From a virus, in IMG/VR virus record IMGVR_UViG_3300047471_000729, positions 1-64,000 of that record: 64,000 bases of DNA, one strand, 5' to 3'. A model generated the notes under the pieces. That model saw nothing but the letters and a program-made list of their open reading frames with translations. It did not search any database and was not told the DNA's origin. Below, piece by piece: positions 5,065 to 59,525 of the stretch. How positions within the stretch are numbered: position 1 is the stretch's first letter; every line of letters starts with the position of its first letter. The position numbers were made by a program, and so were the translations under genes.

Positions 5065-5702
5065 TCGCAATGGTTGGAGCATTTAACCCACTCAAGTCGC
5101 AATCCAGTCCTATTGCGATGGATCAAAACCCATCTGTGCGCAGGGTTAGTGAAGACGGTCATATGCACGTTGAAAATAGCAACATATCAAAAGCGACTGT
5201 TAATCCATACTGGGGTGAAGAGATTCCGGACTATGAAAGATTAGGATTAGACCCTGCTAGAAAGTATTGGTTGTTAAGGCATCCCAAGGAATTGGCAAAG
5301 GGTGCTAGAACCTTTAACAACTTACCTATACTCGCGAAACATCAGCCTATTAGTTCAGATAAGCATCCAGCTGATTTAGTGGTTGGTTCTACTGGTACCA
5401 ATGCTGTTTATAGACATCCTTATCTGCAGAATAGTTTGGTTTTTTGGACAAAACCCGCCATAGATTCAATTGAAGATGGTGAACAGAGAGAGTTATCTTG
5501 TGCGTATCATTACGACCCTTTAATGACCCCAGGTATGTATGAGGGTCAGCACTATGATGGGATTATGACTAATATACGAGGCAACCATGTCGCGCTCGTC
5601 GAGGATGGCCGTGCGGGCTCGGATGTAGTTGTAGCTGATGCTGCTTTTGATGAGAATTTAGGTCATTGGTGGACTATTGTTCATGCTGTGGTTCGGATTT
5701 AG
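5061..5702 (+). CDS. DUF2213 phage protein, N-terminal (protease-like) half
   Basis: 213 residues matching the N-terminal domain of DUF2213 proteins, which sit next to capsid genes and are often annotated as prohead-protease-like. Family hallmarks seen: R-V-S-E-D-G-H-M-x-V, I-S-K-A-x-V-x-P-Y, R-H-P-K-E-L, L-x-K-H-Q-P, R-E-L-S-C-A-Y, and the [10 protein letters not shown]-x-G-R-A-G-S-D block near residue 180. Family members usually run on into a long acidic C-terminal region. Here the reading frame instead ends within the 3' end of an antisense homing endonuclease gene (5658-6290), so the last ~15 residues are foreign. The C-terminal half resumes as a separate ORF at 6340. Product likely acts in procapsid maturation; whether the split form is functional is inference. 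Confidence 0.85.
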
Positions 5703-6290
5703 TTTACATTTATCGAAATGCCATCGCTTCAAAACCATTAGATTACTTTCCAATCCACAGTGTGGGCAATGAACTCTTATGTGAGCACCTGACTTTTGTA
5801 GAGATGCAGCTTTTCGACCACCAACAAGTCCTGCCTTTCGACCAATCTCTGAGCTTTGTTCTTTAGTTAGATTTATGCGACTTCTTAATCCAGCTTCATG
5901 ACCTTGTTTAGACTTTTGCTCAAATGTTTTCGACTCTGCTGAGGCTTTACCTGCTTTTCGACCGATTTCTGAACTTCTCTCTGGTGTTAATGCTTTAGCT
6001 CGAGCTAGCCCACCATTTCTACTATTACCTTTCCGGCCCATTAGGCTTCTTAGTTGTCTTCGTTTCTCTGGATCCATTGTTACAATAGGTATTTTGGAAT
6101 AGTGAACCGTGTCAACTTTGTAACCTTTCTTAATCTGCCACCACTTCTCACGATCACCAGCTTCTTTAGGTGTATTGCATACTTCAATAACTACAAGATT
6201 AGTTCCTTTTGGGTACCACTTTGCCTTTTCCTCTATAGTAAGCTGTGTACAACCAACCTTTTTCCCGGGTATTTCATAGATTATGTACAT
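5658..6290 (-). CDS. GIY-YIG-like homing endonuclease with NUMOD3 motifs and C-terminal zinc finger
   Basis: 210 residues on the strand opposite to the interrupted host gene. The N-terminus [15 protein letters not shown] is a degenerate GIY-YIG start, and D-R-E-K-W-W-Q-x-x-x-G-Y-K-V-D matches the family's Glu-containing helix. Residues about 75-165 carry NUMOD3-like R-K-A-G / S-E-I-G-R-K-A-G repeats, and the C-terminus has C-P-H-C-G ... R-W-H-F-D-K-C, a zinc-binding tail frequent in phage homing endonucleases. The ATG at 6290 has an AAGGA Shine-Dalgarno. It separates two halves of DUF2213 and is a free-standing selfish gene by context. A small group I intron around it cannot be excluded but no intron core was recognised. 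Confidence 0.8.
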
Positions 6291-18385: not shown

Positions 18386-19033
18386 ATGGATTACTACGTC
18401 TATGTACTGATTCGATCTGACAATGGAAAGCCTTTCTACGTTGGATGTGCCATACAACTAGGTCGGATCAGTACACATCTTTCAGGTAGGGATACAGCAA
18501 CAGGTACGATTGTTCGGTCTCTTCGTGATCTAGGATATGAAACCATTCCAATAATAGTGAGGGATGATATAGAATATAAAGAAGCTCGTTTGATTGAGAC
18601 TTGTTTAATAGATGCGCTTAATGGGTTGATTGTAAACAAACGTAGATATGTTGGTGGGTTTTGTGAAGAAACTAGACGTCGAATGTCCCTTGCCAAACTC
18701 GGGAAGCCTAGTGCAAGAAAAGGTAAAAGATATGGACCTACTGAGCGAGGTAAGATTGCTCAAGGACAATTAGGTTGGATAACAAATGGTGTTGAAGATA
18801 AAAGAGTCAATAAGAACAACCCTATTCCTGATGGTTGGTATCGAGGCCGAAGTTTAATAGTTACTCAACAAGAATTAGATAAACGAATTGAACAGAAACA
18901 AGAGAATCGAAAGATTTGGCTTTATCGAAATCGAAATCGATCTTGGATCACGAACGGTTTAAAGAGTAAAAGGCTTCTTGATACTGACCCTATTCCTGAT
19001 GGTTGGTATCTTGGACGAAAAGTCAACCGGTAA
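18386..19033 (+). CDS. GIY-YIG homing endonuclease with T4 Seg-type C-terminal repeats
   Basis: 215 residues. N-terminal GIY-YIG domain: Y-Y-V-Y-V-L-I at residue 3 and F-Y-V-G-C at about 17, with Glu in E-A-R-L-I-E-T. Then NUMOD3-like K-L-G-K-P-S-A-R-K-G. The C-terminus has two copies of a DNA-binding repeat W-I-T-N-G-x-x-x-K-R ... I-P-D-G-W-Y-x-G-R, as in T4 Seg/Mob proteins. It is A+T-richer than the sheath and tube genes on each side and interrupts their usual adjacency, so it is a mobile gene. Translation is probably damped by the hairpin at 18342-18380. Target is probably the sheath-tube junction of related phages (inference). Confidence 0.88.
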   Translation: MDYYVYVLIRSDNGKPFYVGCAIQLGRISTHLSGRDTATGTIVRSLRDLGYETIPIIVRDDIEYKEARLIETCLIDALNGLIVNKRRYVGGFCEETRRRMSLAKLGKPSARKGKRYGPTERGKIAQGQLGWITNGVEDKRVNKNNPIPDGWYRGRSLIVTQQELDKRIEQKQENRKIWLYRNRNRSWITNGLKSKRLLDTDPIPDGWYLGRKVNR

Positions 19034-41741: not shown

Positions 41742-42800
41742 CTACTCAATCGTGGGTGCTACGAATGCTAAGGTCCCCTTCTCGGTGCGGACGATCCGGT
41801 AGGTGGTGGTTGCCTCAATCCGTCGAACCTCTGCAAGTGCAGTCCGCATTTCCTCTTCTGGACTGATCTTGAATTCTCCGGCGGTGGCGGTGTGGACTCC
41901 GGAAACAATGTGAGGTCCGGAACGAATTATTTCTGGTAATGCCACTTTTTCCTCCTCTAATGGTTTGACAATTGCAGGTGTTGTGGGAACCTCAGTCACA
42001 CCAACCCAAACTTGGGGTTGAACGACCCGAGGTGGTACTGGAGTCAGACGATTGGCTGGGGTATTACCGTGAGGTTGGACCTGATCCAGCAAAAGCCTGA
42101 TCACAATGGTGTTGTCAACTACTAGAAACTCTGCAGGGCTTGGGCCGCATATTGGAAGGTCACCGCGAAGTTTCTCTCCTGTAGTACCGTAATAAGATAA
42201 GGTACGATCACTTAGGATCCTAGGTGAGGCTGCCTTGTGCAGAGTCCATTGGTCAGGACCATCACGTTCAGCCCGATACCCATTCCCTATCCCGACGTTA
42301 CCCAAGTTACGAGGAACGAGAAACTTTATTCGATCCTCATAGATAGCAACCCGTCCTATTACCGGATCGGGTGCTGGCTTTGTTTTAGGTACAAAGACCT
42401 TATTAGGTTCAACTGCTGGCATTTCGGGCTCCTTTACTTCTGGAGCTGTAGGTTCAGAGGCATATTCGATCCTGGGTATGTCCGGAATATTGTATTTCTC
42501 CGGTTTAGGTTCATATGGTGTAGGCAGTGGACCCAACATCTCTTCAAGTTTCTGCCTTGGCTTGGGTTCAGGTTTGGGCGGAGGCGGACCAAGTAACTGG
42601 ACAATGTCACGCTTCTTAATGTCAAGGTCCTTAGCACCACCGGACACTGAGTTGTGTAAGGTAATATCCCGCACCTTCCCATTATACAAGAACCTTCCGC
42701 GCGGGTGCCTGCTTTTTCGCAAGATGTCTACATGTTTGATCCCATAAGTCTCGCGCAGGAAGTCCTTGATTGCACTGTAATAGTTTGATGTTTGACTCAT
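41742..42800 (-). CDS. Hypothetical protein with Pro-rich linker
   Basis: 352 residues. Residues 1-65 are a small basic module (I-K-D-F-L-R-E-T-Y-G-I-K-H-V-D-I-L-R-K, then G-R-F-L-Y-N-G-K-V-R-D-I-T-L-H) that may bind nucleic acid. Residues 70-135 are a linker of P-P-P-P-K-P-E-P-K-P type. A folded middle (about 140-235) contains V-A-I-Y-E-D-R-I-K-F-L-V-P-R and V-V-D-N-T-I-V-I-R-L-L. Another Pro/Val linker and a helical C-terminus (M-R-T-A-L-A-E-V-R-R) follow. No family recognised. It has its own promoter at 42859-42887 and is followed by the bidirectional terminator, so it is a single-gene unit. Confidence 0.7.
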   Translation of the reverse strand: MSQTSNYYSAIKDFLRETYGIKHVDILRKSRHPRGRFLYNGKVRDITLHNSVSGGAKDLDIKKRDIVQLLGPPPPKPEPKPRQKLEEMLGPLPTPYEPKPEKYNIPDIPRIEYASEPTAPEVKEPEMPAVEPNKVFVPKTKPAPDPVIGRVAIYEDRIKFLVPRNLGNVGIGNGYRAERDGPDQWTLHKAASPRILSDRTLSYYGTTGEKLRGDLPICGPSPAEFLVVDNTIVIRLLLDQVQPHGNTPANRLTPVPPRVVQPQVWVGVTEVPTTPAIVKPLEEEKVALPEIIRSGPHIVSGVHTATAGEFKISPEEEMRTALAEVRRIEATTTYRIVRTEKGTLAFVAPTIE

Positions 42801-42897: not shown

Positions 42898-42937
42898 CAA
42901 AAAGAGGAGGCTGCGCCCGATCAAAACACAGCCTCCT
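42898..42937 (-). terminator. Terminator of the PEP-CTERM operon
   Basis: On the - strand AGGAGGCTG (42937-42929) pairs with CAGCCTCCT (42913-42905), loop of 15, followed by CTTTTTGC. Located between the second PEP-CTERM gene and the next - strand promoter. Confidence 0.85.
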
Positions 42938-42955: not shown

Positions 42956-43759
42956 TTAGGCTACTGCACCACCACCAAAGTTGCCTTTGCGGCGACGATA
43001 CCAACCGACCAGACCAAATCCGAGAATTGCTGAACCAAAGATGGTCAGCGAACCCGGCTCCGGGACTGCTGCTGCTGGCGCGGCTTCGACAAAGAACGAG
43101 TCTGGACCATCGTTCAACCCTGACATTCTCGCGAGGAACAACACCGTGTCGCCCACATGAATGTCGTTGTTGGTCAGGCTGAAACCAGAGATCGTGTAAT
43201 CGGGAAAGCCCGTGCCATTGTTGACATCCGGCACGTTACCAGTAGTACCGCCCGTGAAGCTGTCGAGTACAGTGTGTGTCGTCAGGTTCAGGAACCAGAA
43301 GCTATTCAGCGTCTCAGCGACGTTGGTTGAGTTGATATCGACGCCAATGCTGAACCTCAGATTGTTGGCAGCATCACCATTGGCAAGCAAGAATGCCAGG
43401 AGAGGACTACCTGAACCAACTTGATAACCAGTGGCGAACGTGTCATCGGCGAGCGTGTTGCGCCCACCGTTGCCTTGGTCCGAGAACGCTGAGATTGCGC
43501 TTAGATTACCTGCGTTGCTGTAATCGTTATATCCGAAATTCGCAGGCTGCTGTGGCTGGTTTTCCCCGCAGATCACGCATGGCGCGTTCTGCGGTTGATT
43601 ACCGCCAGGAACGAAATTACCAAGCGATAGGCTGCCTGAGTTAGTGGTGTTCCATTGCACCCCACCCAAGGTGACAAACGTGTCAGCCTTAGCCGGTGTC
43701 ATTGAAAGCAGAGCGCCGCAAGCGACACCTGCCATCAAAAGTTTCATTACAGTTTTCAA
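42956..43759 (-). CDS. Secreted PEP-CTERM surface protein B
   Basis: 267 residues starting at TTG 43759 (AAAGG eight bases upstream; ATG 43747 has no ribosome site). N-terminal signal peptide (K-L-L-M-A-G-V-A-C-G-A-L-L, cleavage after A-K-A). The mature part is Asn/Gly/Ser-rich with a C-V-I-C-G pair and beta-rich composition. C-terminal PEP-CTERM signal: V-P-E-P-G-S-L-T-I-F-G, a membrane helix, then W-Y-R-R-R-K. In Gram-negative bacteria this signal is recognised by exosortase, which cuts at the PEP site and hands the protein to the surface or matrix. No exosortase is in the window, so host machinery would be needed. Second gene of a two-gene operon, closed by a terminator at 42898-42937. Confidence 0.88.
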   Translation of the reverse strand: MKTVMKLLMAGVACGALLSMTPAKADTFVTLGGVQWNTTNSGSLSLGNFVPGGNQPQNAPCVICGENQPQQPANFGYNDYSNAGNLSAISAFSDQGNGGRNTLADDTFATGYQVGSGSPLLAFLLANGDAANNLRFSIGVDINSTNVAETLNSFWFLNLTTHTVLDSFTGGTTGNVPDVNNGTGFPDYTISGFSLTNNDIHVGDTVLFLARMSGLNDGPDSFFVEAAPAAAVPEPGSLTIFGSAILGFGLVGWYRRRKGNFGGGAVA

Positions 43760-43812
43760 CGTACTAACCTTTCTATAGTAATTGGTGGGGCCCCAAGACC
43801 CCACCAAACGTG

Positions 43813-44562
43813 CTAGGCAGAGGCGAGATTGCCCTTGCCGTTCTTCCGGCGACGCAGCTTACCCACGACACCCATACCAATAAGCGAGGTGCCAAAGATA
43901 ATCAGCGAAGCAGGTTCGGGCACCGCTTGCGTAGTGACGATTGATTGGGTACGCCCAACCAACGACGCACCAGCGATCAGCGTACCGGTGGTCCCTTCCG
44001 ACAGGGAGTAGGGACCGGTGCTGTCGAACACACCTGAAAAGTTCTGCGAGAACGAGTCAGGATCGACCACGGCAGCGTGCGTCAGGGTTGCAAGCAAAGT
44101 CCCCGGCAGATCAGTCGGGGTGTCCGCGCCTTGCGTGTTCGCCGCATCACCAAAGAACGTCTCAGTGACGCTGGAGCCGATACCGGATTGGAACGTCCCG
44201 GCGCCACTAGCGGTGAACGCCGTGACCGGACCCAAGAAGCTGGTCCCACTCACGGCAAGCTGAATCGAAACCGTACCCGTGTTATTGTTGATCACCTGAA
44301 ACGAGGAGGTGTTCAACGAGTTTGACGGTCCGATTACCTGAGTCTGTGCTGATCCGAGGAACTGCACACCGGCGATCGTCTGATTGGCAATTTGCAACTG
44401 ACCAACTGCGTTGTTGGTGTCGCAAGCTGCCTGATCTGCGCAGACGAATGAAGTACCGTTGATGTCTGCGGCGATCTGTAGTGTCGCGTTAGCCGAACCT
44501 GCCAACGCCAACCCACCCGCAAGGATGGTGCTGGCTAAGGCTAGGTTTTTGAGCTTACTCAT
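43813..44562 (-). CDS. Secreted PEP-CTERM surface protein A
   Basis: 249 residues with GAGGT before ATG 44562. Signal peptide: K-L-K-N-L-A-L-A-S-T-I-L-A-G-G, ending A-N-A. The mature region is a Ser/Thr/Gly-rich beta protein with one Cys pair near its start (F-V-C-A-D-Q-A-A-C). C-terminus: V-P-E-P-A-S-L-I-I-F-G, hydrophobic helix, K-L-R-R-R-K, a complete PEP-CTERM signal. It is the first gene of the pair; protein B starts 53 bases downstream of its stop. Architecture is bacterial rather than phage-like, so a moron acquired from a host genome is likely. Expected location: periplasm, then cell surface or exopolysaccharide after exosortase processing (family knowledge). Confidence 0.9.
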   Translation of the reverse strand: MSKLKNLALASTILAGGLALAGSANATLQIAADINGTSFVCADQAACDTNNAVGQLQIANQTIAGVQFLGSAQTQVIGPSNSLNTSSFQVINNNTGTVSIQLAVSGTSFLGPVTAFTASGAGTFQSGIGSSVTETFFGDAANTQGADTPTDLPGTLLATLTHAAVVDPDSFSQNFSGVFDSTGPYSLSEGTTGTLIAGASLVGRTQSIVTTQAVPEPASLIIFGTSLIGMGVVGKLRRRKNGKGNLASA

Positions 44563-44574
44563 ATTTACCTCACT

Positions 44575-44603
44575 TTGCTAGTCTAGCTAGCAGAGCATTG
44601 CAA
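44575..44603 (-). promoter_or_regulatory. Possible promoter/operator of the PEP-CTERM operon
   Basis: On the - strand a TTGCAA box (44603-44598) stands 17 bases before TAGCAA (44580-44575), a poor -10. The spacer holds the palindromic GCTAG-N5-CTAGC (44578-44592). The TTGC-N8-GCAA operator seen elsewhere is not complete here, so this operon may be controlled differently. Confidence 0.4.
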
Positions 44604-44673
44604 TAGCTATGCCACTAGTGTCTTTGTTTGTTTTCAAGAGGTTAGGTGTTCGAAGGGGTGCAAAGTGTAAAGT

Positions 44674-44883
44674 TTAGGCGACACTTTCATTGTCGGATTT
44701 TACACTTTTTAGTGGGTTCTTTGGGCAATTATCAAAGTGCCATCGAGTTAGTACTCCTCGATTGTTCTTATGCCCACAGTGAGGGCATTCACCCATGCCC
44801 TTTGATGTAAAGAACCTCTCGTTAAAACTAATCGATCGTTCAGGTCGTTTATGTAGTGATCTAATCTCAGACGATTTTGTCAT
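44674..44883 (-). CDS. Orphan zinc finger protein resembling homing endonuclease tails
   Basis: 69 residues starting at ATG 44883 inside the stop of the upstream gene. The C-terminal half reads E-C-P-H-C-G-H-K-N-N-R-G, then R-W-H-F-D-N-C, nearly the same as the zinc-binding C-terminus of the endonuclease at 5658-6290. No catalytic domain is present. It may be a remnant of a homing endonuclease or a domesticated DNA-binding protein. Coupling with the gene at 44880 suggests that it is expressed. Confidence 0.6.
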   Translation of the reverse strand: MTKSSEIRSLHKRPERSISFNERFFTSKGMGECPHCGHKNNRGVLTRWHFDNCPKNPLKSVKSDNESVA

Positions 44884-45335
44884 TGTACTTGATCCTTTTC
44901 ACGAAGCCACGTAGTAATATGTCGCTTGATGATCTTGGGATTGATATTTGGTGGTTCATCATGTGCCAAGATGAACTTGCCAACCAGCTCAACAGGGTCC
45001 GAGTCCACTGGAGGTAATCCTGTTTCAAGCCAATTCTTGACCAGTGGGAGTATATCAGGTGCAGTTATGATTAGTTCTTTGAATACATCACTAGCTGGGA
45101 TCGAGTTGGATGTGGAGGATCCAACCCTTAAAGCCCCATTGTCACCGATATAGTAGTTCTTCTCCCCATCTTTTTGATAGACTGCATAACGTTGTGATCT
45201 GGTTTGCTGTTTTGTATAACCCATCACTTCAAAGCCAGCGATATACTTTTCACGAAGTGTAGTGGGATTACGATGATTAACATGGCGACGTCGGACCGTA
45301 CGACGCCTAGGAGTAGTAAATTGTAAAGGCATCAT
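44880..45335 (-). CDS. Hypothetical protein with basic N-terminus
   Basis: 151 residues, start ATG overlapping the upstream stop (ATGATG). N-terminus strongly basic (R-R-R-T-V-R-R-R-H-V-N-H-R). The middle, F-E-V-M-G-Y-T-K-Q-Q-T-R-S-Q-R-Y-A-V-Y, is followed by N-Y-Y-I-G-D-N-G-A-L-R-V-G, a pattern of small beta hairpins, and a helical end with W-L-R-E-K-D. Possible nucleic acid binding. Middle gene of a three-gene overlap (45532, 45335, 44883). No family recognised. Confidence 0.6.
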   Translation of the reverse strand: MMPLQFTTPRRRTVRRRHVNHRNPTTLREKYIAGFEVMGYTKQQTRSQRYAVYQKDGEKNYYIGDNGALRVGSSTSNSIPASDVFKELIITAPDILPLVKNWLETGLPPVDSDPVELVGKFILAHDEPPNINPKIIKRHITTWLREKDQVQ

Positions 45336-45532
45336 GCTTCTCCATCTTTGAATAACCAGGACCTAACTGCGCAATCCTTGGCCTCCAATAGTTTACGAAG
45401 GCAAGTGGTCTTCTCAGGGTTGTTTGGGTATGTGTCAATACCCGCTGCAAACTCCTGAAAGCTTTTGGATACAGGTTGCAGGTGCTCAGGCAGATGTTTG
45501 TACTCGAAAAACTGCATTAGGTAGTGAGGCAT
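45332..45532 (-). CDS. Small conserved phage protein (helical hairpin, F-F-E-Y-K-H-L-P type)
   Basis: 66 residues from ATG 45532 with an AGGAGG site (45541-45536 on the - strand). Sequence: Q-F-F-E-Y-K-H-L-P-E-H-L-Q-P-V-S-K-S-F near the start, N-N-P-E-K-T, then L-R-K-L-L-E-A-K-D-C-A-V-R-S. Small proteins of this shape are very common in phages and are usually unannotated. Two helices with the conserved L-L-E-A-K-D-x-A-V-R end recall the hairpin fold of Acb2/Tad1 anti-defence proteins, which sequester cyclic nucleotides; that link is a suggestion from shape only. Translated with the next two genes. The hairpin at 45561-45596 lies just upstream. Confidence 0.7.
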   Translation of the reverse strand: MPHYLMQFFEYKHLPEHLQPVSKSFQEFAAGIDTYPNNPEKTTCLRKLLEAKDCAVRSWLFKDGEA

Positions 45533-46720: not shown

Positions 46721-47221
46721 TTAGGTGGCCATCAGTTCACGAGCAGCAGGACCGTCCTTCCGCCGCCTGCGCCGGCGCTTCAGAAAGGACGTCTGATCCT
46801 TCTCGTTCCAGGACCGAATGAGTGCCATGTCCAGATAGTCCAGATCGAGACCAAAGTCCTCATAGCCCTGTGCGATCACGTCCAGATAGTGCTGCCCAGG
46901 AGGCTGAACACCACCGTGGCACATCTGATACACCAGGACATCGGCAACCTTACCGGTCTTGACCATCTTGACCTTGATGTAGATCTTCTCATAGAGACCT
47001 CCACCAACGCCCTCATACATGTCAAGCTCTTTTTCACACTCCCTGGTGATCTTCCAAAGACCACCGGGGCAGCTTTCCTTGCGGTCGTACTCGATATCGG
47101 CTACACCGCGAAACACCAGGCGTGAGTGGGTGAGATGAAACGAGCCCAGCTTCTTGGCCTTGGGGCATCTGCGCTTCATCGCCTCGACACAGAGATTGCT
47201 TCCATAGGCGAAATACAACAT
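46721..47221 (-). CDS. GGCT/AIG2-like gamma-glutamylcyclotransferase
   Basis: 166 residues from ATG 47221 (AAGGAG upstream; the frame to 47425 runs over the promoter). The start M-L-Y-F-A-Y-G-S-N-L carries the Y-G-S-N substrate-binding loop of the GGCT-like fold; D-M-Y-E-G-V at about residue 70 holds the catalytic Glu, and Y-I-K-V-K, V-L-V-Y-Q-M complete the barrel. The family releases 5-oxoproline from gamma-glutamyl amines or peptides. The last ~15 residues include a run of Arg (K-R-R-R-R-R-R-K). Phage copies are known near amidoligases, and one is present here at 48628-49842. Own promoter at 47250-47277. Substrate unknown. Confidence 0.82.
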   Translation of the reverse strand: MLYFAYGSNLCVEAMKRRCPKAKKLGSFHLTHSRLVFRGVADIEYDRKESCPGGLWKITRECEKELDMYEGVGGGLYEKIYIKVKMVKTGKVADVLVYQMCHGGVQPPGQHYLDVIAQGYEDFGLDLDYLDMALIRSWNEKDQTSFLKRRRRRRKDGPAARELMAT

Positions 47222-47249
47222 GTCGGAATCTCCTTGCTGACTCCCTATA

Positions 47250-48627: not shown

Positions 48628-49842
48628 TTATCTCCTCTCGGTGATGACACGATTGAGTTGAGCTACCCGCGCCTGCAGGAAAGCCAACTCGTTCGCAGGG
48701 ATATTAACCGTATTTGCAAAATTCTGCAAGGAATCATCTCCCTCGGGCTGCAAACCTTTCACGGCCGCGTCGTAGATGCGCAAGCAAACCCGTACCCAAT
48801 GCTCTGCTTTGTCGGCATCGACCGTGCCCTGGTGCTGCCTGAACTCGACCGTTGTGTGTCGCCAGAAGGCTGCGAGATTAACCTTGAGGAACCGCTCAAG
48901 TCTATTCTCCATTTGTGCGGGATAGCTTGGCATGATGTTTAACAAGCTACCCGCATATGCCAGCGCCAGCTCGTCTATATTGGTGGCGGCTGCAATTAGA
49001 AGCGACCTGGCACCATCTTCCACCCGCGCTTTGGTCGAGCGGCAATAACTATTGTTATTTGCACGGCGCGTCTGGGAAGTGATAGAGTCAATTGCGCCTT
49101 CATAGTGACCATAAAGCTTGATCAGATTGCGGAAGAAGTTAACATCTCGGCCTTCTGCGCCGATATGCACGTGAAAGCCTGCCTGGCGGCGAACTGTGCA
49201 GCCCTTTTCTTCCAGAAACTTCATCATCTTACGCATCTGCTGGATGCCCTCGCTGCCTTGCAGCACTGGGGACACCACTTCAATGCCATTTCTACGATCA
49301 CCAAGCGAACCGTCCTGCGTGATCTTCCACACATTAGGCCGGACGGGATCACGATAATAACCAATCACTGCTTGAAAGCCTGCGCTGATCATGTCAGCCA
49401 TAAGGCTGCGTTGACCCATATTCCGGGGCATGTAGCATTCGATCTCAACGCCGAATGTGTAATCGGTGAGGTCGGCGTCAAGCGCGGTGCTGAGTGCCAC
49501 AATTGCTGTGCTGGTGTGAGGCGCCCGTGGACCGCGAGGCGTCACTGTGCCTTCGGTCAACAGCACTTCCGGGAGCTGCTCCAGCAGGCTGGGCATCGGT
49601 AAGCGTTCAATCAGCCAGGTCCGATTTGTGTTTATCACCCGCTGGCGCAAGGCCAGCAAGCGAACGGCCCGCCACCGAACTGAGGTCCAATTGTTGGTCC
49701 ACTGATTGGTGTTCCACTGGGACACGCCACTCAGATGATGGCGTACCTGTGTTGCGATGGTCCGATACTCATTGTGGATCTGCTCGTCCCACCAGGCCGG
49801 ACCTTGGCCATTGATTGTGGGGGGTAGATTAATGCGAGGCAT
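48628..49842 (-). CDS. Putative amidoligase (Amidoligase_2 family)
   Basis: 404 residues. Residues 1-120 are a phage-specific helical N-terminus (W-W-D-E-Q-I-H-N-E-Y). From about 128 the glutamine-synthetase-like COOH-NH2 ligase fold: F-G-V-E-I-E-C-Y-M with paired Glu for metal binding, W-K-I-T-Q-D-G-S-L followed by G-I-E-V-V-S-P-V-L-Q-G (about 170-192), F-H-V-H-I-G (about 220), then E-N-R-L-E-R-F-L-K and the E-F-R-Q-H-Q-G-T motif. These match Amidoligase_2 enzymes, which are predicted to join amino and carboxyl groups using ATP. Phage members have no established substrate. First gene of the leftward operon under the promoter at 49870-49897; a GGCT-like gene lies downstream. Confidence 0.82.
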   Translation of the reverse strand: MPRINLPPTINGQGPAWWDEQIHNEYRTIATQVRHHLSGVSQWNTNQWTNNWTSVRWRAVRLLALRQRVINTNRTWLIERLPMPSLLEQLPEVLLTEGTVTPRGPRAPHTSTAIVALSTALDADLTDYTFGVEIECYMPRNMGQRSLMADMISAGFQAVIGYYRDPVRPNVWKITQDGSLGDRRNGIEVVSPVLQGSEGIQQMRKMMKFLEEKGCTVRRQAGFHVHIGAEGRDVNFFRNLIKLYGHYEGAIDSITSQTRRANNNSYCRSTKARVEDGARSLLIAAATNIDELALAYAGSLLNIMPSYPAQMENRLERFLKVNLAAFWRHTTVEFRQHQGTVDADKAEHWVRVCLRIYDAAVKGLQPEGDDSLQNFANTVNIPANELAFLQARVAQLNRVITERR

Positions 49843-53947: not shown

Positions 53948-55216
53948 TTATGTTACTCTTAAGTTATACTTAAGAAATCTTTTGACCAAAGTTGTTGACT
54001 TTATTCTACGTCGAGTTAATGCAGAAAGCATCATCATAGTTACTCCAACTATCACTATTGAAACTTTGTCGTTCATATCTCCCACAATGAAAATTGGTTG
54101 TAGAATTAATGTCATCAAAACTCCAGTACAAAATGTAACAAGAGAATTCTGACCTAAAAGAATGACTGGCTTGGAAACAGTCCATCTTAAGAATTCACTC
54201 TCTCGACTGACAAAGCTATTAATAACAATCACCACTGCTAGAAAATTAGCTAGTCGGACTGGTGCTAGAAATTCTTTACTTTGAAATAGTCTCCATGGCA
54301 AACCACCAGGAAAGATGAGTTCATTTACCGATGGTATGCTAAAAATTGCGCATCCTATAACAATAGTCCAAGCTCCAATAGTTATCCAATTCCATTTATT
54401 AACTATATAAATTTCTCTGTTCTTAATCGGAATAAACTCTGGAATTAGAATTCTTCTTCTATGAGTTTGAAGATGTCGAATTGATGCACCTATGACAAAT
54501 AGGAATTGCCATGACAAAGGATTTACCCAATGAGCACTGTTAAAATATGGAATATCCCACAATATAATTAAAGTCGAAAAGTAAATTGAAAAGGAAACTA
54601 GTAACGTTACCAACACATTCTTCCTAAGAGCATATAGAATAATCGGAAGAATTGCTAGGAGCATCATATATACTGGCAAAACTCCTAGAAATGGTACCTT
54701 AAACTTAAAAGAAACTAGCGCATCGATAGCTTGCTGAAAGACAGTATCAATTGAGATATAAGGAGATGACTCACCAGAAATTACTACATACAAAAAGTAG
54801 AATAAGAAAATCAGAAAGTTGGCTATGTATAGCTTACCAACTCGTTTGTAAATTTTAGTAGCTGTTGGTCGTATTCCATAGTTATTCAACATACTTCCAT
54901 AGACCAAATAAGAAATGTATCCTGAGATACAAATGAAAACCTCCGATGCATCGAAGAAAGTGAAATAGCGAAGGAGTAGCGGTGATCCATGAACATGATC
55001 ATAAAAGATCAAAATGAGAGCGATTCCTCGAAAGAAATCTACTCTGGGATCACGAGAGCTAAGGTAGTCAGCCGGCATCATTACACCGGTGGTACCGCGC
55101 CGATTCTCTTCAATCGGCAAAGTGTCGATATGACTTCCCTTCTGAAAATCAGCGCGTGGTTTTGGGAGACGGGACAATCTATGCTCCCAACGATACATCA
55201 TTTCGGCGTAATCCAT
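53948..55216 (-). CDS. OpgC-like membrane acyltransferase
   Basis: 422 residues from ATG 55216 (AAGGA seven bases upstream; the frame start at 55243 would overlap the previous gene). After ~60 cytosolic residues, the OpgC signature: P-R-V-D-F-F-R-G-I-A-L-I-L-I-F-Y-D-H-V-H-G, F-F-D-A-S-E-V-F-I-C-I-S-G-Y-I-S-Y-L-V-Y-G (as blocks), then 10 or more membrane helices in all, ending with a basic tail. OpgC enzymes add succinyl groups to osmoregulated periplasmic glucans in Gram-negative bacteria; relatives acylate surface sugars. The gene is visibly A+T-richer than its neighbours, a sign of transfer. At the end of a leftward regulatory operon. Likely host-envelope modification; acceptor sugar unknown. 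Confidence 0.85.
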   Translation of the reverse strand: MDYAEMMYRWEHRLSRLPKPRADFQKGSHIDTLPIEENRRGTTGVMMPADYLSSRDPRVDFFRGIALILIFYDHVHGSPLLLRYFTFFDASEVFICISGYISYLVYGSMLNNYGIRPTATKIYKRVGKLYIANFLIFLFYFLYVVISGESSPYISIDTVFQQAIDALVSFKFKVPFLGVLPVYMMLLAILPIILYALRKNVLVTLLVSFSIYFSTLIILWDIPYFNSAHWVNPLSWQFLFVIGASIRHLQTHRRRILIPEFIPIKNREIYIVNKWNWITIGAWTIVIGCAIFSIPSVNELIFPGGLPWRLFQSKEFLAPVRLANFLAVVIVINSFVSRESEFLRWTVSKPVILLGQNSLVTFCTGVLMTLILQPIFIVGDMNDKVSIVIVGVTMMMLSALTRRRIKSTTLVKRFLKYNLRVT

Positions 55217-55227
55217 AACAGTTCCTT

Positions 55228-56484
55228 TCATCTCATAAACCAACGACTAATCACTTGCTTCACTCCTTTCATTGGGGAACCCCACCTTTGCCTTACTTCT
55301 TTGGCTTGTTTTTGTACTGTTATCTTTAATGGTGGATTGTGTCTTTTATGTAGTTCTTCAATTACAGCAGTGATGTCTCCTAACTTTCCATCAAAACCTA
55401 CCTCAAGAACAGCTAGTGACGCAATCGAATAGGCTTCAAGCAGACGTGGTACCCATTGTGTTCTCCGCTTTAGATCCATTGGAAGGATCTTTTTCCCCAC
55501 ATTATTTTCAAGATTCACCCAGTTTATTGCCCGGATTTTCAGCGTTTCCATAGTTAGAAGAGCATCATTCGGATAACCAAGTATTTTAATTTCATGTATC
55601 TTATTCCAAAACATCTGTTTATATTCATTAATCAAGCCCATTTCAAAGGTATAGCGCATGGCTCGGTGAAGTTTTTGATTACCTCGCTGTCCATGTTCCA
55701 AGTGGGTTAGTATGTGAAACCATGCGTCCTCAAACGGATCTCTACTGGGCTTCAGTCTAGGACGACGATACTTGGTGATGGATGAAGGTGTAACTTCCAC
55801 CACTTCCTTAACTTTGGGTAACGGTGCGGGTGGAGGCAACACAGGAGGAGTTAATAACTTAGGTGGTGCTTCCGGGTATACCTTGGGTGCACGTTTGCGC
55901 CTGGCCGCACCCGCGCGAGGTAGAGTAGATTTCTCAGGTGGAGCCTGAATTATCTCTGGTGGGATTGGTGGTACCTGCGCAGCATATGTCGCCGCTTCTG
56001 CTTCCCGACATCCGTTAATAAGTGCTGCAACCTTATCCAAATTAACCCCATTACCATTGGATTGCGGATTAGTTACAGAGACTTCGTTATTACAGGTAGG
56101 ACATGTATAAGCAGGTTTTTGATTGGAAGATGGCCAATGGGATAGATAACGTTTATTCCCACAATCTACACAAGCAGTCGTATCAGGCTTAAGCCGAATA
56201 AAATCAGAACGTTGCAGACGGGGAATATTTCCCCGACTGTTTTTTCCCTGATCATCTTGACGCTCAATGAGTGGGCGGACATATGATATAAATAACCGCC
56301 ATCGGGCAGTATGCAAACCTACATCAATCGGTGAATCTCCTCTGCCATTAATCCGGGAGGATCGGCGGAGGGCTAGATGGGGTGGAATTGATTCTTCCAC
56401 CCCAGCAAAGAGCCCTCCTAACCGAACCCAAGACTCTGGGTTCGCCGCTAGATTAGCGACGGTTTGTTGTCGCCAGGTTAGCAT
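55228..56484 (-). CDS. Hypothetical protein with zinc ribbon
   Basis: 418 residues. Zinc ribbon at about 102-130: C-V-D-C-G-N-K-R-Y-L, then C-P-T-C-N-N-E. N-terminal ~90 residues helical and basic. A Pro-rich linker spans about 165-225 (P-P-K-L-L-T-P-P, V-L-P-P-P-A-P-L-P), followed by a conserved C-terminal domain with W-F-H-I-L-T-H-L-E-H-G-Q-R-G-N and E-H-L-K type helices. The domain is not recognised. Its ATG overlaps the previous gene's stop and it ends 12 bases before the acyltransferase start. DNA or RNA binding by the ribbon is likely. Part of the operon from 57497. Confidence 0.65.
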   Translation of the reverse strand: MLTWRQQTVANLAANPESWVRLGGLFAGVEESIPPHLALRRSSRINGRGDSPIDVGLHTARWRLFISYVRPLIERQDDQGKNSRGNIPRLQRSDFIRLKPDTTACVDCGNKRYLSHWPSSNQKPAYTCPTCNNEVSVTNPQSNGNGVNLDKVAALINGCREAEAATYAAQVPPIPPEIIQAPPEKSTLPRAGAARRKRAPKVYPEAPPKLLTPPVLPPPAPLPKVKEVVEVTPSSITKYRRPRLKPSRDPFEDAWFHILTHLEHGQRGNQKLHRAMRYTFEMGLINEYKQMFWNKIHEIKILGYPNDALLTMETLKIRAINWVNLENNVGKKILPMDLKRRTQWVPRLLEAYSIASLAVLEVGFDGKLGDITAVIEELHKRHNPPLKITVQKQAKEVRQRWGSPMKGVKQVISRWFMR

Positions 56485-57497
56485 ATCGGCGAGGCAGCCT
56501 GTGCTAACCCTGAGGATGCGGAACCACCCTGCATCCGAATGATCCTCTCGAGTTCGGCTTGCACCTTGTTGAGATGATCCTTCAAATCCAGAATCGCATT
56601 AAGGGAATCACGGGGATTTACCAATGCGGATAGATGCAGATGCTCAACTCCCTTGCTGGCCTGCCTGCTCAATCCACGGCAACCACCAATAAACTTTGTT
56701 CCCATAGTGGAGGAGGTCTTACCAACCCGGGACTTGATGCGACGCTGCTCTTCCTCGGCCTGATCGTGATACTTCTTAACCACGGCCATCTCAGCATCCT
56801 GTCCCTTGGTCTTTACGGCATTGACATCACGAACCATATTCTCAACCGTTCTGCCCGTGACGGAGTAGTAATGGGGCAGTTCGGCCGCCTTCTGATAGAC
56901 GATATCTGAGCCGATTTTATTGAGAGCAATGATTGTGTTCTGGGGTTGATTGCCATTATCGAAGTCGAACCCCAGCTTCGATGCACGCTTAATCCCCTGA
57001 TACTCATTCCAAGCACTCAATGCTGTGGCGGCGGGAATGTGGAACATCTTCGCCAGCTCAGGAATGGTAGTATTGGGAAACTTTTCGTGCATCGAGAAGA
57101 TATGATGCGTGACATCTTGCCTGGTATCACGCTTGCCTTCGATACCGTTAAGCAAGCGCAGCAACAGCTCCTGACGATACTGATCAGGCTCAGTCACGAT
57201 ATAAGCATCATGCCAGTCGAGTTTGCAGTCCTTGGTCGCCTTAATCCGGTGCATTCCTGTACCGACAAGGTATTTGGCTTGATCGACTGCAAAGACAACA
57301 ATCGCCGGAAATGGAGCGCCCTCAAGCATGGCTAGGCCATACTCGTTGACGAGCAAATCATCAATTTTTCGCCTTAGACGAGCTGGATTTTCCTCACTCG
57401 CCTTGAGATCAATATCGCTGAATAGCAGTTTCTCCACATAGCGAAACTTGTAGTTACCCTGCTTAAATAGGGCTTCAGTTCCTGCGTGTTTTGTCAT
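56478..57497 (-). CDS. ParB/Srx-like DNA-binding protein
   Basis: 339 residues, AAAGGA(AAGG) before ATG 57497. The N-terminal ~130 residues match the ParB/sulfiredoxin-like fold: F-P-A-I-V-V-F, Y-L-V-G-T-G-M-H-R-I-K-A where phage homologues have the G-x-H-R motif, and L-L-R-L-L-N. Then an HTH-like region F-P-N-T-T-I-P-E-L-A-K-M-F-H-I-P-A-A-T-A-L split in two helices. The C-terminal third is basic with K-S-R-V-G-K-T-S and a coiled coil. In phages, such proteins act as regulators or as partition-like or nuclease-like factors. First gene of the operon with promoter 57531-57559. Confidence 0.7.
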   Translation of the reverse strand: MTKHAGTEALFKQGNYKFRYVEKLLFSDIDLKASEENPARLRRKIDDLLVNEYGLAMLEGAPFPAIVVFAVDQAKYLVGTGMHRIKATKDCKLDWHDAYIVTEPDQYRQELLLRLLNGIEGKRDTRQDVTHHIFSMHEKFPNTTIPELAKMFHIPAATALSAWNEYQGIKRASKLGFDFDNGNQPQNTIIALNKIGSDIVYQKAAELPHYYSVTGRTVENMVRDVNAVKTKGQDAEMAVVKKYHDQAEEEQRRIKSRVGKTSSTMGTKFIGGCRGLSRQASKGVEHLHLSALVNPRDSLNAILDLKDHLNKVQAELERIIRMQGGSASSGLAQAASPIC

Positions 57498-57530
57498 AAT
57501 CCTTTCCTTTCAATGTACGTCAGCAGTTAG

Positions 57531-57582
57531 TATATATATGCTCGCGCAACACATTGCAAGCTATTTTTGCGACGGCTTGCAA
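57531..57582 (-). promoter_or_regulatory. Promoter with tandem operators for the ParB-like operon
   Basis: On the - strand TTGCAA (57559-57554), 17-bp spacer, TATATA (57536-57531). The spacer copy is degenerate (TTGCAATGTGTTGCGC), but a good TTGCAAGCCGTCGCAA lies just upstream at 57582-57567. Two sites suggest stronger or cooperative control. Confidence 0.7.
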
Positions 57583-57587
57583 TTCAT

Positions 57588-58472
57588 TCATTCTTCCTCT
57601 ATTAGTCCAGCTTCTCGTAATGCAGTTATATACGATTCGAGGTATGGAATCATTAGTTTCAACCGATTGACTAATTCGGTTGCAGATCGACCAAAATCAA
57701 TCTGTTCACCATTATCCGCCTCCCGACGTATATTATGTAAAAGTGCTTCTTGTATGGCAGTTACAAGTTTTCCAGGACTGTAATGTCGCGAATTCATAAA
57801 GTTTGAGATACTCAGTAGTCGGTCATCAATTAGTACCTTATCTCGAAGTAAGTTTGTAATTCTGGTGGGGTGTAGATGGACTCTACCATATTGTTGGGTA
57901 AAGGCTAGATGGTCCTGAATTGGTGCGTCTATTGGTGGACGTTCAACTTCACCCGGTTGTGTCCATGGTGTTAGGGTCATTGGTGGTATAACAATAGGTG
58001 TTCGCCTAACTGGTGCTTGGCGAACAGGTGTTTGTCTGGTTAATGGTGGGGTGGTAGATCTTTGGGGTCGATTTTGTCTTAATTCCTTTATTTTGGCTGT
58101 TTGTTGAGTTTTGGTCATTCCTATGAAACGGTGTTGTTCAGGAATAGGTAGATCTCGAGCGATGAACACAATTGAACCAATTGCAAATTCTTTTCGATCC
58201 ATAAGCTCTATTATTTCTGGAATACCTTTCTCAACGACAGTCACTGCTTCATATGCTGTGCTTCTATTACTAAGACCAACTCGTTTTGCTGCATCATCTG
58301 GACTTAGAAAAGCAACTCCAGTATACTGCAGTTGCTCTTGACGGTGGTCCCCACCATGCGGTCTCACAATCTTCTTGAACCAACCGGCTCGTTCACTGAT
58401 CTTGTAACCGTCTCGCATTTCGTTCTCGTCTATTTCAGGTATTATGATTTCATCGATGTTTATACTTGTCAT
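57588..58472 (-). CDS. ParB-like / HTH regulatory protein
   Basis: 294 residues. N-terminal part Y-K-I-S-E-R-A-G-W-F, V-A-F-L-S-P-D-D-A-A-K-R-V-G-L-S-N-R-S-T-A-Y-E-A-V includes a helix-turn-helix; next I-I-E-L-M-D-R-K-E-F-A-I-G-S-I-V-F-I-A is the ParB-type spacing seen after the HTH. Pro/Arg-rich linker (about 135-175) and a C-terminal helical region with F-G-R-S-A-T-E-L. Probably sequence-specific DNA binding. About 15 bases from the promoter region of the next operon; its own promoter is not obvious and it may be transcribed from 59575-59603. Confidence 0.65.
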   Translation of the reverse strand: MTSINIDEIIIPEIDENEMRDGYKISERAGWFKKIVRPHGGDHRQEQLQYTGVAFLSPDDAAKRVGLSNRSTAYEAVTVVEKGIPEIIELMDRKEFAIGSIVFIARDLPIPEQHRFIGMTKTQQTAKIKELRQNRPQRSTTPPLTRQTPVRQAPVRRTPIVIPPMTLTPWTQPGEVERPPIDAPIQDHLAFTQQYGRVHLHPTRITNLLRDKVLIDDRLLSISNFMNSRHYSPGKLVTAIQEALLHNIRREADNGEQIDFGRSATELVNRLKLMIPYLESYITALREAGLIEEE

Positions 58473-58535
58473 TGTTCTATCTCATAAAAGAGGAAGGCGG
58501 ACGGCTGTTGCCGCCCGCCCCCTTTGATCAGTTTC

Positions 58536-59525
58536 TTATTGTGCTGCTTCGGCCAGTTCTGCAGGTTCGATAAAGCGCGGGAAACGCTCATCGGTGCGCA
58601 GAAAGAGACCATTGCGACCAATTCCCTTATCCTGTTTAAACAGATTGAATGCCTTGATCAGCAGAGCGAGACGTGGACCATACTTAAGATCCATGTCGTT
58701 CTCCTGAGTAGACAACAACTTGTTACGCAGGTGCAGGATGGGATCATGTTCGTCAAGATTTGCTCCGGAACCCAGAGGACGGAAGAAATCCTCAAGCACA
58801 TCGTTCCCGTAAAGCGTCAAGATCTTCGAAGCACTAAAGATCGCCGCCGGTTTGTTACCGATGACTTTGACTGCCGTAGGGTAGTTGGCCGAAACGTGAT
58901 GTGCAGCGGCTCCCACCTCAGGATGCTGGCGACTATAATTCAGCACTTCAATATTAGTGAAGGGCCGAATGACAGGTTGCTTGTTGGTAACGACCAGTGC
59001 ATTATGGTCGTATCGCCAAGCCAGCTTAATCGCACCCGCGACCGAAGCCGCCATGCCGTTTGCACCAGCTGTGTACAAGGCATCTGCCGCGTTCCTCGGC
59101 TTAGAATCGTCAATGAACGCAAACAGAGAGTCATGCACTGGTATATCACACACCACGTAAGTTTCGAATGTGACACCTGACATGTAGCAAGCCCATAGCC
59201 GATGCTGTGCATCCCACACTTGGCCATCAGTTGTGATCAAAATTGCCTGACCAGTCTTGATCCACATGTCCGCAATCATGCAAGCGGCATACTTACGGAT
59301 AGCTGAAAGTGAAAGCTTCCGATTTACCTTGTTACGCCGAAGGAGCTTCTCGGCGATTTCTGGTGTGATTGTGCACCAACCAGTGGTAACAGGAAGTTCG
59401 GTGGGAGGAAGTTGTGTAGCTGACCATTCATCGAACCTAGTGACCAACTCCTGAAAAGCTAGTGCACTACAAGTATCAAGGTCGATGGTGACAGCTGGAC
59501 TCCAAGTGGTATTAGGTTCTGGCAT
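58536..59525 (-). CDS. ParB-superfamily protein with D-x-Q-H-R motif
   Basis: 329 residues from ATG 59525 (AAAGGG upstream; the frame to 59690 crosses the promoter). N-R-K-L-S-L-S-A-I-R-K-Y, M-I-A-D-M-W-I-K-T-G, then V-W-D-A-Q-H-R-L-W-A-C (about 100-110) follow the family pattern N-R-x-x-x-x-x-x-x-x-Y-A-x-x-M-x-x-G-x-W ... D-G-Q-H-R-L, known in many phages; here Ala replaces the usual Gly. The rest is helical. Members are ParB-like and have no settled function; DNA binding or nicking is suspected. First gene after the divergent operator region 59575-59713. Confidence 0.75.
   Translation of the reverse strand: MPEPNTTWSPAVTIDLDTCSALAFQELVTRFDEWSATQLPPTELPVTTGWCTITPEIAEKLLRRNKVNRKLSLSAIRKYAACMIADMWIKTGQAILITTDGQVWDAQHRLWACYMSGVTFETYVVCDIPVHDSLFAFIDDSKPRNAADALYTAGANGMAASVAGAIKLAWRYDHNALVVTNKQPVIRPFTNIEVLNYSRQHPEVGAAAHHVSANYPTAVKVIGNKPAAIFSASKILTLYGNDVLEDFFRPLGSGANLDEHDPILHLRNKLLSTQENDMDLKYGPRLALLIKAFNLFKQDKGIGRNGLFLRTDERFPRFIEPAELAEAAQ

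Follow-up and report, generated by a model that had tools for sequence, protein, structure and literature searches.

What use would a phage have for proteins that end in the sorting signal of bacterial surface proteins? The question is raised by two adjacent genes, A and B, in a stretch of 64,000 nucleotides (the window: positions 1 to 64,000 of IMG/VR record IMGVR_UViG_3300047471_000729). The whole record measures 92,966 bp and belongs to a phage with a contractile tail. Its plus strand encodes tail sheath, baseplate wedge, tape measure, head protease and major head protein, and a minus-strand accessory stretch beyond the tail-fiber genes contains A and then B. A first-pass annotation had described the pair as a phage operon with its own terminator, set among accessory genes, each product having a signal peptide and a full V-P-E-P, membrane helix, R-R-R-K C-terminus. 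Much of this is borne out: both open reading frames are present on the minus strand within 42956-44562, phage structural genes share their record, both C-termini are as described, and a terminator-like hairpin (42937-42905, minus strand) follows B, in a region where a terminator scan returned five such sites against 2.8 expected. Of the signal peptides, what was found is a hydrophobic N-terminal stretch in each protein, read from the sequence and from predicted models. In the direction of transcription, the features of the locus are:

44666..44684, minus strand: putative enhancer box (Haft motif 1), ending in TTTACA at 44671-44666
44599..44614, minus strand: sigma-54 type -24/-12 site TGGCATAGCTATTGCA (GG-N10-GC), a pattern match
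43813..44562, minus strand: gene A, 249 aa, with signal stretch, predicted beta-sandwich ectodomain and VPEP-helix-RRRK tail
43849..43926, minus strand: PEP-CTERM sorting signal of A, from a translated search
43784..43805, minus strand: G+C-rich inverted repeat between A and B, with no T-run, read in the sequence
42956..43762, minus strand: gene B, with inferred start, signal stretch, predicted beta-rich ectodomain containing C-x-x-C, and VPEP-helix-RRRK tail
42992..43069, minus strand: PEP-CTERM sorting signal of B, from a translated search
42905..42937, minus strand: intrinsic-terminator-like hairpin 3' of B, with a 14-bp stem and a T-rich tail

The reading frame listed for B opens with a TTG at 43807. 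The TTG at 43762 is preferred, since AGAAAGG lies just upstream of it and a related locus (L020) shows a TTG and similar residues at this point; an ATG at 43750 is the alternative.

An assembly chimera or bacterial contamination, named at the outset as the explanation that would undo the operon reading, can practically be dismissed, because other contigs show the same junctions. In one of them (3300046477_000443; loci L005/L019) A and B are flanked on either side by phage genes, with 100% identity at the protein level; 3300046817 and 3300046837 supply contigs with the downstream or the upstream junction, and the flanking gene at 41742-42800 is present in four contigs, three of them identical to the window. 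A sister phage (L039, on an 83,589-bp contig) has a different cassette of this kind in the same position, its flanks being mostly 95-100% identical to those of the window in 60-bp bins, with a few bins at 65-85%. The best matches of the tail sheath (47.6% identity) and head protein (48.6%) are phages of Proteobacteria, and no host genus emerged from these structural genes. No terminase was found in the window's own record; matches exist in the record of the sister phage (G034) and in another contig of the window's phage (G031), and 26 of the 50 viral records examined have one. A tyrosine integrase was not found in the window's record (1/22 virus records has one), so lysogeny is not evident.

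Elsewhere in the window, an OpgC-type membrane acyltransferase (53948-55216, minus strand; PF10129, 211 bits) is a second likely envelope-modifying gene. Near the operon lie gamma-glutamyl cyclotransferase-like and amidoligase genes (46721-47224 and 48628-49842, minus strand), and pairs of this kind are known as peptide or surface modifiers. A small protein at 45332-45532 (minus strand; phrog_1761/5120, of unknown function), with relatives around A or B in L010 and L035, presumably resembles the anti-CBASS protein Acb2; it matched no named family, and identity with Acb2 was rejected. Two GIY-YIG-like endonuclease genes (5658-6290, minus strand; 18386-19033, plus strand) were recognized by eye amid the structural genes, and three adjoining proteins with no Pfam match (56478-59525, minus strand) are ParB-like by eye and could bear on plasmid persistence. 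Positions 64001-92966 of the record (L040, L041) contain what we take, by eye, to be genes of the preQ0/7-deazaguanine pathway and for RecA, DNA polymerase and ribonucleotide reductase.

The V-P-E-P, helix, R-R-R-K endings of A and B are not a product of chance. When the last 50 residues of each protein were shuffled 100,000 times, a tail conforming to a strict rule (PEP plus helix plus basic residues) arose 10 times from A and 62 times from B, and just two of the 262 open frames of at least 80 aa in the 92,966-bp record conform, namely A and B themselves. Among 9,015 other ORFs of related loci (overlapping loci being entered more than once) the rule picks out 15, nine of them distinct, and all nine occupy the slot beside an A- or B-family gene. 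Scores with curated models are uneven: TIGR02595 of NCBIfam (cut-off 16) gives 20.2 for A and 12.4 for B, whereas Pfam PF07589 (cut-off 20.7) gives 17.9 and 16.2 by hmmscan, both under, and 22.8 and 24.5 in a translated search with in-frame neighbors, both counted as over. A check of the C-termini against PEP-CTERM models, proposed in the first-pass annotation, is in this way positive for A by TIGR02595 and for B in the translated search only; because of this unevenness the claim is made to rest on conservation across the families and not on single scores. By eye, a hydrophobic stretch is combined with basic residues in every one of the 58 distinct complete C-termini that the B profile matched (a few of them chiefly via the tail), and the forms seen are VPEP-like, VPGP-like and TPLP. 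Nearly all A-family tails are (again by eye) of the VPEP type, that of L126 extending past its PEP motif and others varying slightly. One protein (L034) scores 41.5 with the PEPxxWA-CTERM model (cut-off 35) and one TPLP protein 18.5 with VPLPA-CTERM (cut-off 25.35). Membership of A in the EDSAP-1 family (NF041538) was rejected at a score of 27.6 against a cut-off of 100.

Tails resembling PGP-x-x-GAGLPGL, with a hydrophobic stretch and arginines, end the B-family proteins of L066, L116, L031, L036 and others. Two VPGP proteins tested matched no curated sorting model. A protein with a tail similar to this form occurs in one alphaproteobacterial genome, and VPGP-type tails were found in three of 190 Alphaproteobacteria genomes, none of the three being among the 24 with exosortase. 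With no exosortase detected in its three carrier genomes, the VPGP tail is unsupported as an exosortase signal, and may not be one.

Could the pair be passengers – host surface genes acquired by chance and of no benefit to the phage? Bacterial PEP-CTERM proteins are numerous and variable (PMC1569441), and A has relatives in bacteria: in addition to 57 viral loci, its profile found three loci in two genomes of a collection holding one genome for each of 84,980 species, both genomes (Sabulicella rubraurantiaca and Roseomonas sp. AR75) being of the Acetobacterales. Among the matches listed from 200 genomes of the Sabulicella family, A was matched over its whole length in Sabulicella and weakly in one more genome, the other listed matches being mostly to its C-terminal part. 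The B profile, on the other hand, found 212 viral stretches, of which 80 were kept, and no relative in bacteria across the same 84,980 species; since the profile method requires exact short motifs, slightly different between collections, distant bacterial relatives may be missed. Single-sequence scans also miss relatives, since a scan with the first-slot protein of L020 returned only itself, though its sister in L021 is a relative. No relative of A or B was found in PHROG or INPHARED (deposited phages). The A family appears to be largely viral, and the B family so far wholly viral. In 14 distinct combinations the gene next after A is another PEP-CTERM gene, which in five is of the B family; the search for the operon in related phages, as suggested earlier, has in this way returned A and B relatives and tandem second-slot genes in other viral contigs. 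Beside the A/B-type genes the next most shared family occurs in at most nine of 65 nonredundant loci, so that the cassette sits in phages sharing little else nearby. This spread of two families, together with the tandem arrangement, the want of a bacterial relative of B and the purifying selection described below, makes chance acquisition very improbable.

Control of the pair may also have been taken from bacteria. Proteobacterial PEP-CTERM genes are described as preceded by a 17-nt motif with TTTACA at its end, then 32-92 nt of spacer, then a sigma-54 site (-24 GG/-12 GC) located 23-221 nt before the start; this element was present before 99 of 167 such genes and was tied to PrsK, PrsR and PrsT (PMC1569441). 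In a pepA promoter for which a start site was mapped, TGGCAC is the putative -24 (PMC9850573). Before A, where no sigma-70 promoter site was found, TGGCATAGCTATTGCA (44614-44599) is separated from the upstream TTTACA by 51 nt and from the start of A by 36 nt, and both spacer and distance are within the published definition, motif 1 being compared by its TTTACA end only; between TTTACA and the TCG of the enhancer box there is one base more than in most relatives. The sigma-54 site is the sole exact match of its pattern in the window; taken alone it is weak, since with one mismatch allowed there are eight matches against 5.9 expected. Of 5,000 shuffles of the sequence upstream of A, 19 scored as high. 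At the threshold used for the composite element the window has no second one, and such an element arose in 1 of 20,000 resamples of the same upstream sequence. The element before A, of which the first-pass annotation had made no report, appears to be of the type described for proteobacterial PEP-CTERM genes.

Across the related loci the composite element precedes 15 of 39 A-family genes (a count that includes the window, which shares its element with L039, and one bacterial gene, L042; one further gene had too little upstream sequence), compared to 1 of 489 other genes of the same loci, none of 28 B-family genes, and a mean of 0.065 of 39 in resampled sequence. As defined, it is absent from the remaining 24 A-family genes and from every B-family representative (28/28), and phages with B alone must therefore control B otherwise. 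A DNA-pattern scan of viral contigs gave at least 80 loci (93 stretches reported), and 81 elements were read in the loci listed. A PEP-CTERM ORF lies downstream of 24 of these elements (22 distinct), compared to 0/81 in the reverse direction and 27/1,620 for random points. The spacers of the 22 distinct elements measure only 41-43, 50-51 or 61-64 nt – roughly 10-bp steps, which would follow from a need for activator and polymerase to lie on one face of the helix – and those of the other 57 elements are spread. Two of the 24 ORFs are of the A family. Other PEP-CTERM proteins stand behind the TTTACA/sigma-54 element in L201, L218, L226, L245, L256, L265, L276 and others. A fraction of the 24 genes may come from host DNA at provirus edges, given that some records have isolate-like names and that terminases are few (detected in 4/21 further pattern-scan records, L245 and L276 among them).

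If the sorting signals are used, the host would have to supply the enzyme, since no exosortase was found in the 50 records searched out of 58 selected long viral records. Both bacteria with relatives of A have exosortase, and both have PrsR (601 and 609.6 against a cut-off of 502.6, with 0/14 control genomes over it), of which none was found in the nine virus records tested. That exosortase and PrsR are present in the host of this phage we infer from these two bacterial relatives of A, a weakness of the reading proposed below. What stands of the earlier proposal that the phage uses host exosortase is a PEP-CTERM pair that would need the host's enzyme.

Comparison of close relatives reveals how the proteins vary. 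Between the window and L039, second genes are 92% identical in the tail and 21% in the body, and first genes 86% at the start, 52% in the body and 69% in the tail. The first genes of L020 (3441-4169) and L021 (3380-4102), embedded in flanking DNA that is 90-100% identical, match at 100% in both start and tail and at 46% in the body. The A proteins of the window and L006 share 98% of the body, 50% of the start and 67% of the tail, and the second genes of L006 and L039 100% of the body and 78% of the tail. Tail and backbone go together in two of three comparisons (window/L039 second gene, L020/L021 first gene) and part in the third: in the first gene of L039 the tail resembles that of L006 (37/39 residues) more than that of the window (27/36), which speaks against a strict rule that tail follows backbone. 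The comparisons support the view that bodies travel between phages and that a complete sorting tail is always kept, a pattern in keeping with a host-adapted tail and a body whose partner varies.

Values of dN/dS are 0.11 for A (window/L006) and for B (window/L020), 0.13 for window/L007, and 0.03-0.20 for five further conserved pairs of B or second-slot genes; where bodies were swapped they are 0.33-0.39, with one pair saturated. The ectodomains of A and B therefore appear to be under purifying selection (dN/dS ~0.11), and this bears on a further possibility, that of a decoy. If A and B served to saturate the host exosortase – the host losing its own PEP-CTERM proteins and its EPS barrier thinning – then a tail would suffice, and yet the ectodomains belong to conserved families and seem to be maintained by selection. 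In favor of a decoy, A and B share with host substrates both sorting signal and promoter class, but on balance we regard this role as improbable.

What the ectodomains would do is suggested in part by their predicted structures. The model of A (pLDDT 89) consists of a signal helix, a beta sandwich and a C-terminal helix, and its nearest solved folds are Bd1399 (Z 9.1), the surface glycan-binding SGBP-B (8.4) and CBM61 (8.2), carbohydrate-binding modules other than CBM61 (CBM4, CBM16 and similar) scoring below 8.2. A has no Pfam CBM match, and because unmatched models usually reach a best Z not far below 8-9, carbohydrate binding by A is a weak lead. B is modeled as beta-rich (pLDDT 72), with no structural match in the PDB (best E-value 0.14), and by sequence neither protein has a credible match there. 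A cysteine pair is kept in the A family and in the B family, which is consistent with life outside the cytoplasm.

The literature on flocculation offers a specific role: A and B may be matrix proteins that keep EPS on infected cells, in flocs or for cell protection, in the manner of PepA. RpoN-dependent PEP-CTERM proteins of Zoogloea and Aquincola prevent the release of soluble EPS (PMC9012009, PMC9850573): Zoogloea PrsK or PrsR mutants release soluble EPS and overexpressed PepA restores flocs (PMC9012009), and Aquincola flocs are rescued when pepA is overexpressed and soluble EPS thereby lowered (PMC9850573). PepA, linked to EPS, is like A a PEP-CTERM protein with a sigma-54 promoter, and the promoter that appears to have been captured is of the PepA class. 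Unlike PepA, A is phage-borne, and with the PepA model (NF033554) A scores a weak 24.8 and the first-slot protein of L020 a weak 37.7, far under the cut-off of 80; identification of A as PepA was rejected on this basis. Moreover, the exchange of bodies between close phages exceeds the apparent needs of a structural role, and EPS handling in the manner of PepA seems to us rather unlikely. Since the Zoogloea and Aquincola proteins retain EPS, their phage counterparts could have an effect on EPS or cover receptors. Masking against other phages is favored, and tentatively put forward, on the ground that close relatives differ in the exposed parts; no result separates receptor masking from EPS remodeling.

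Our preferred reading is that A and B form a phage-borne surface-display cassette that depends on the host for both control and delivery, and to this we assign a probability of about 60%. Host sigma-54 RNA polymerase, with a PrsR-type regulator bound upstream, would transcribe A and B, which would thus be on in hosts running the EPS/PEP-CTERM program. Both proteins would be exported, as their signal stretches, terminal helices and conserved cysteines suggest, and host exosortase would then recognize VPEP-helix-RRRK and pass them to the outer surface or the EPS matrix. These steps of transcription, export and sorting, taken as a whole, we hold with good confidence. Promoter type, export and sorting signals, tandem order and exchange of bodies jointly suggest display on an infected Gram-negative host that produces EPS. 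At the surface the beta-rich ectodomains, that of A resembling carbohydrate-binding modules, might bind or cross-link surface glycans, with the outcome that receptors are masked against competing phages or that the holding of EPS is altered. The exposed bodies, as the comparisons support, would be exchanged by recombination over tails that stay complete.

How does such a cassette relate to known systems? Cor, Llp and SieA are superinfection-exclusion or lysogenic-conversion proteins, encoded by phage accessory genes that change the host envelope. A and B are likewise phage accessory genes, but lysogeny is not evident for their record, and we know of no protein of the Cor, Llp or SieA type that uses a host exosortase or a host EPS regulator. 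The LPXTG surface proteins of Gram-positive prophages are phage products that use a host sortase-like enzyme; enzyme, signal and envelope all differ from those of A and B. A further likeness is to the bacterial PEP-CTERM/exosortase (EpsH) system, whose proteins have a signal peptide, probable in A and B as well, and share the variable body and PEP-helix-basic tail and, in Proteobacteria, the TTTACA plus sigma-54 element upstream (PMC1569441). In contrast to that system, A and B are phage-encoded, no phage exosortase was found, bodies are exchanged between phages, and the genes stand in tandem where the bacterial operons are mostly of a single gene (PMC1569441). Titles and abstract openings of a mostly open-access literature, bioRxiv excluded, contained no report of phage-encoded PEP-CTERM proteins. 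The passages of PMC12642866 deal with host genes, and in PMC1569441 and PMC9850573 no word begins with "phage".

A wider conclusion, evenly balanced in our judgment, is that phages have built a diversifying surface-display system from host EPS machinery – a captured PrsR/sigma-54 promoter, the exosortase of the host, and domains swapped over a kept tail – such that infected cells would gain a phage-specified surface type. In effect this would be akin to capsule or serotype conversion, here brought about by proteins and in phages in which no integrase was found. If true, phages would read and write the extracellular-matrix program of their hosts by way of the host's regulator and exosortase, and infection would be linked to the formation of biofilms and flocs. 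Exosortase biology would gain natural foreign substrates, with tails that differ between phages, and the old question of what PEP-CTERM proteins do would become testable with small viral proteins under purifying selection.
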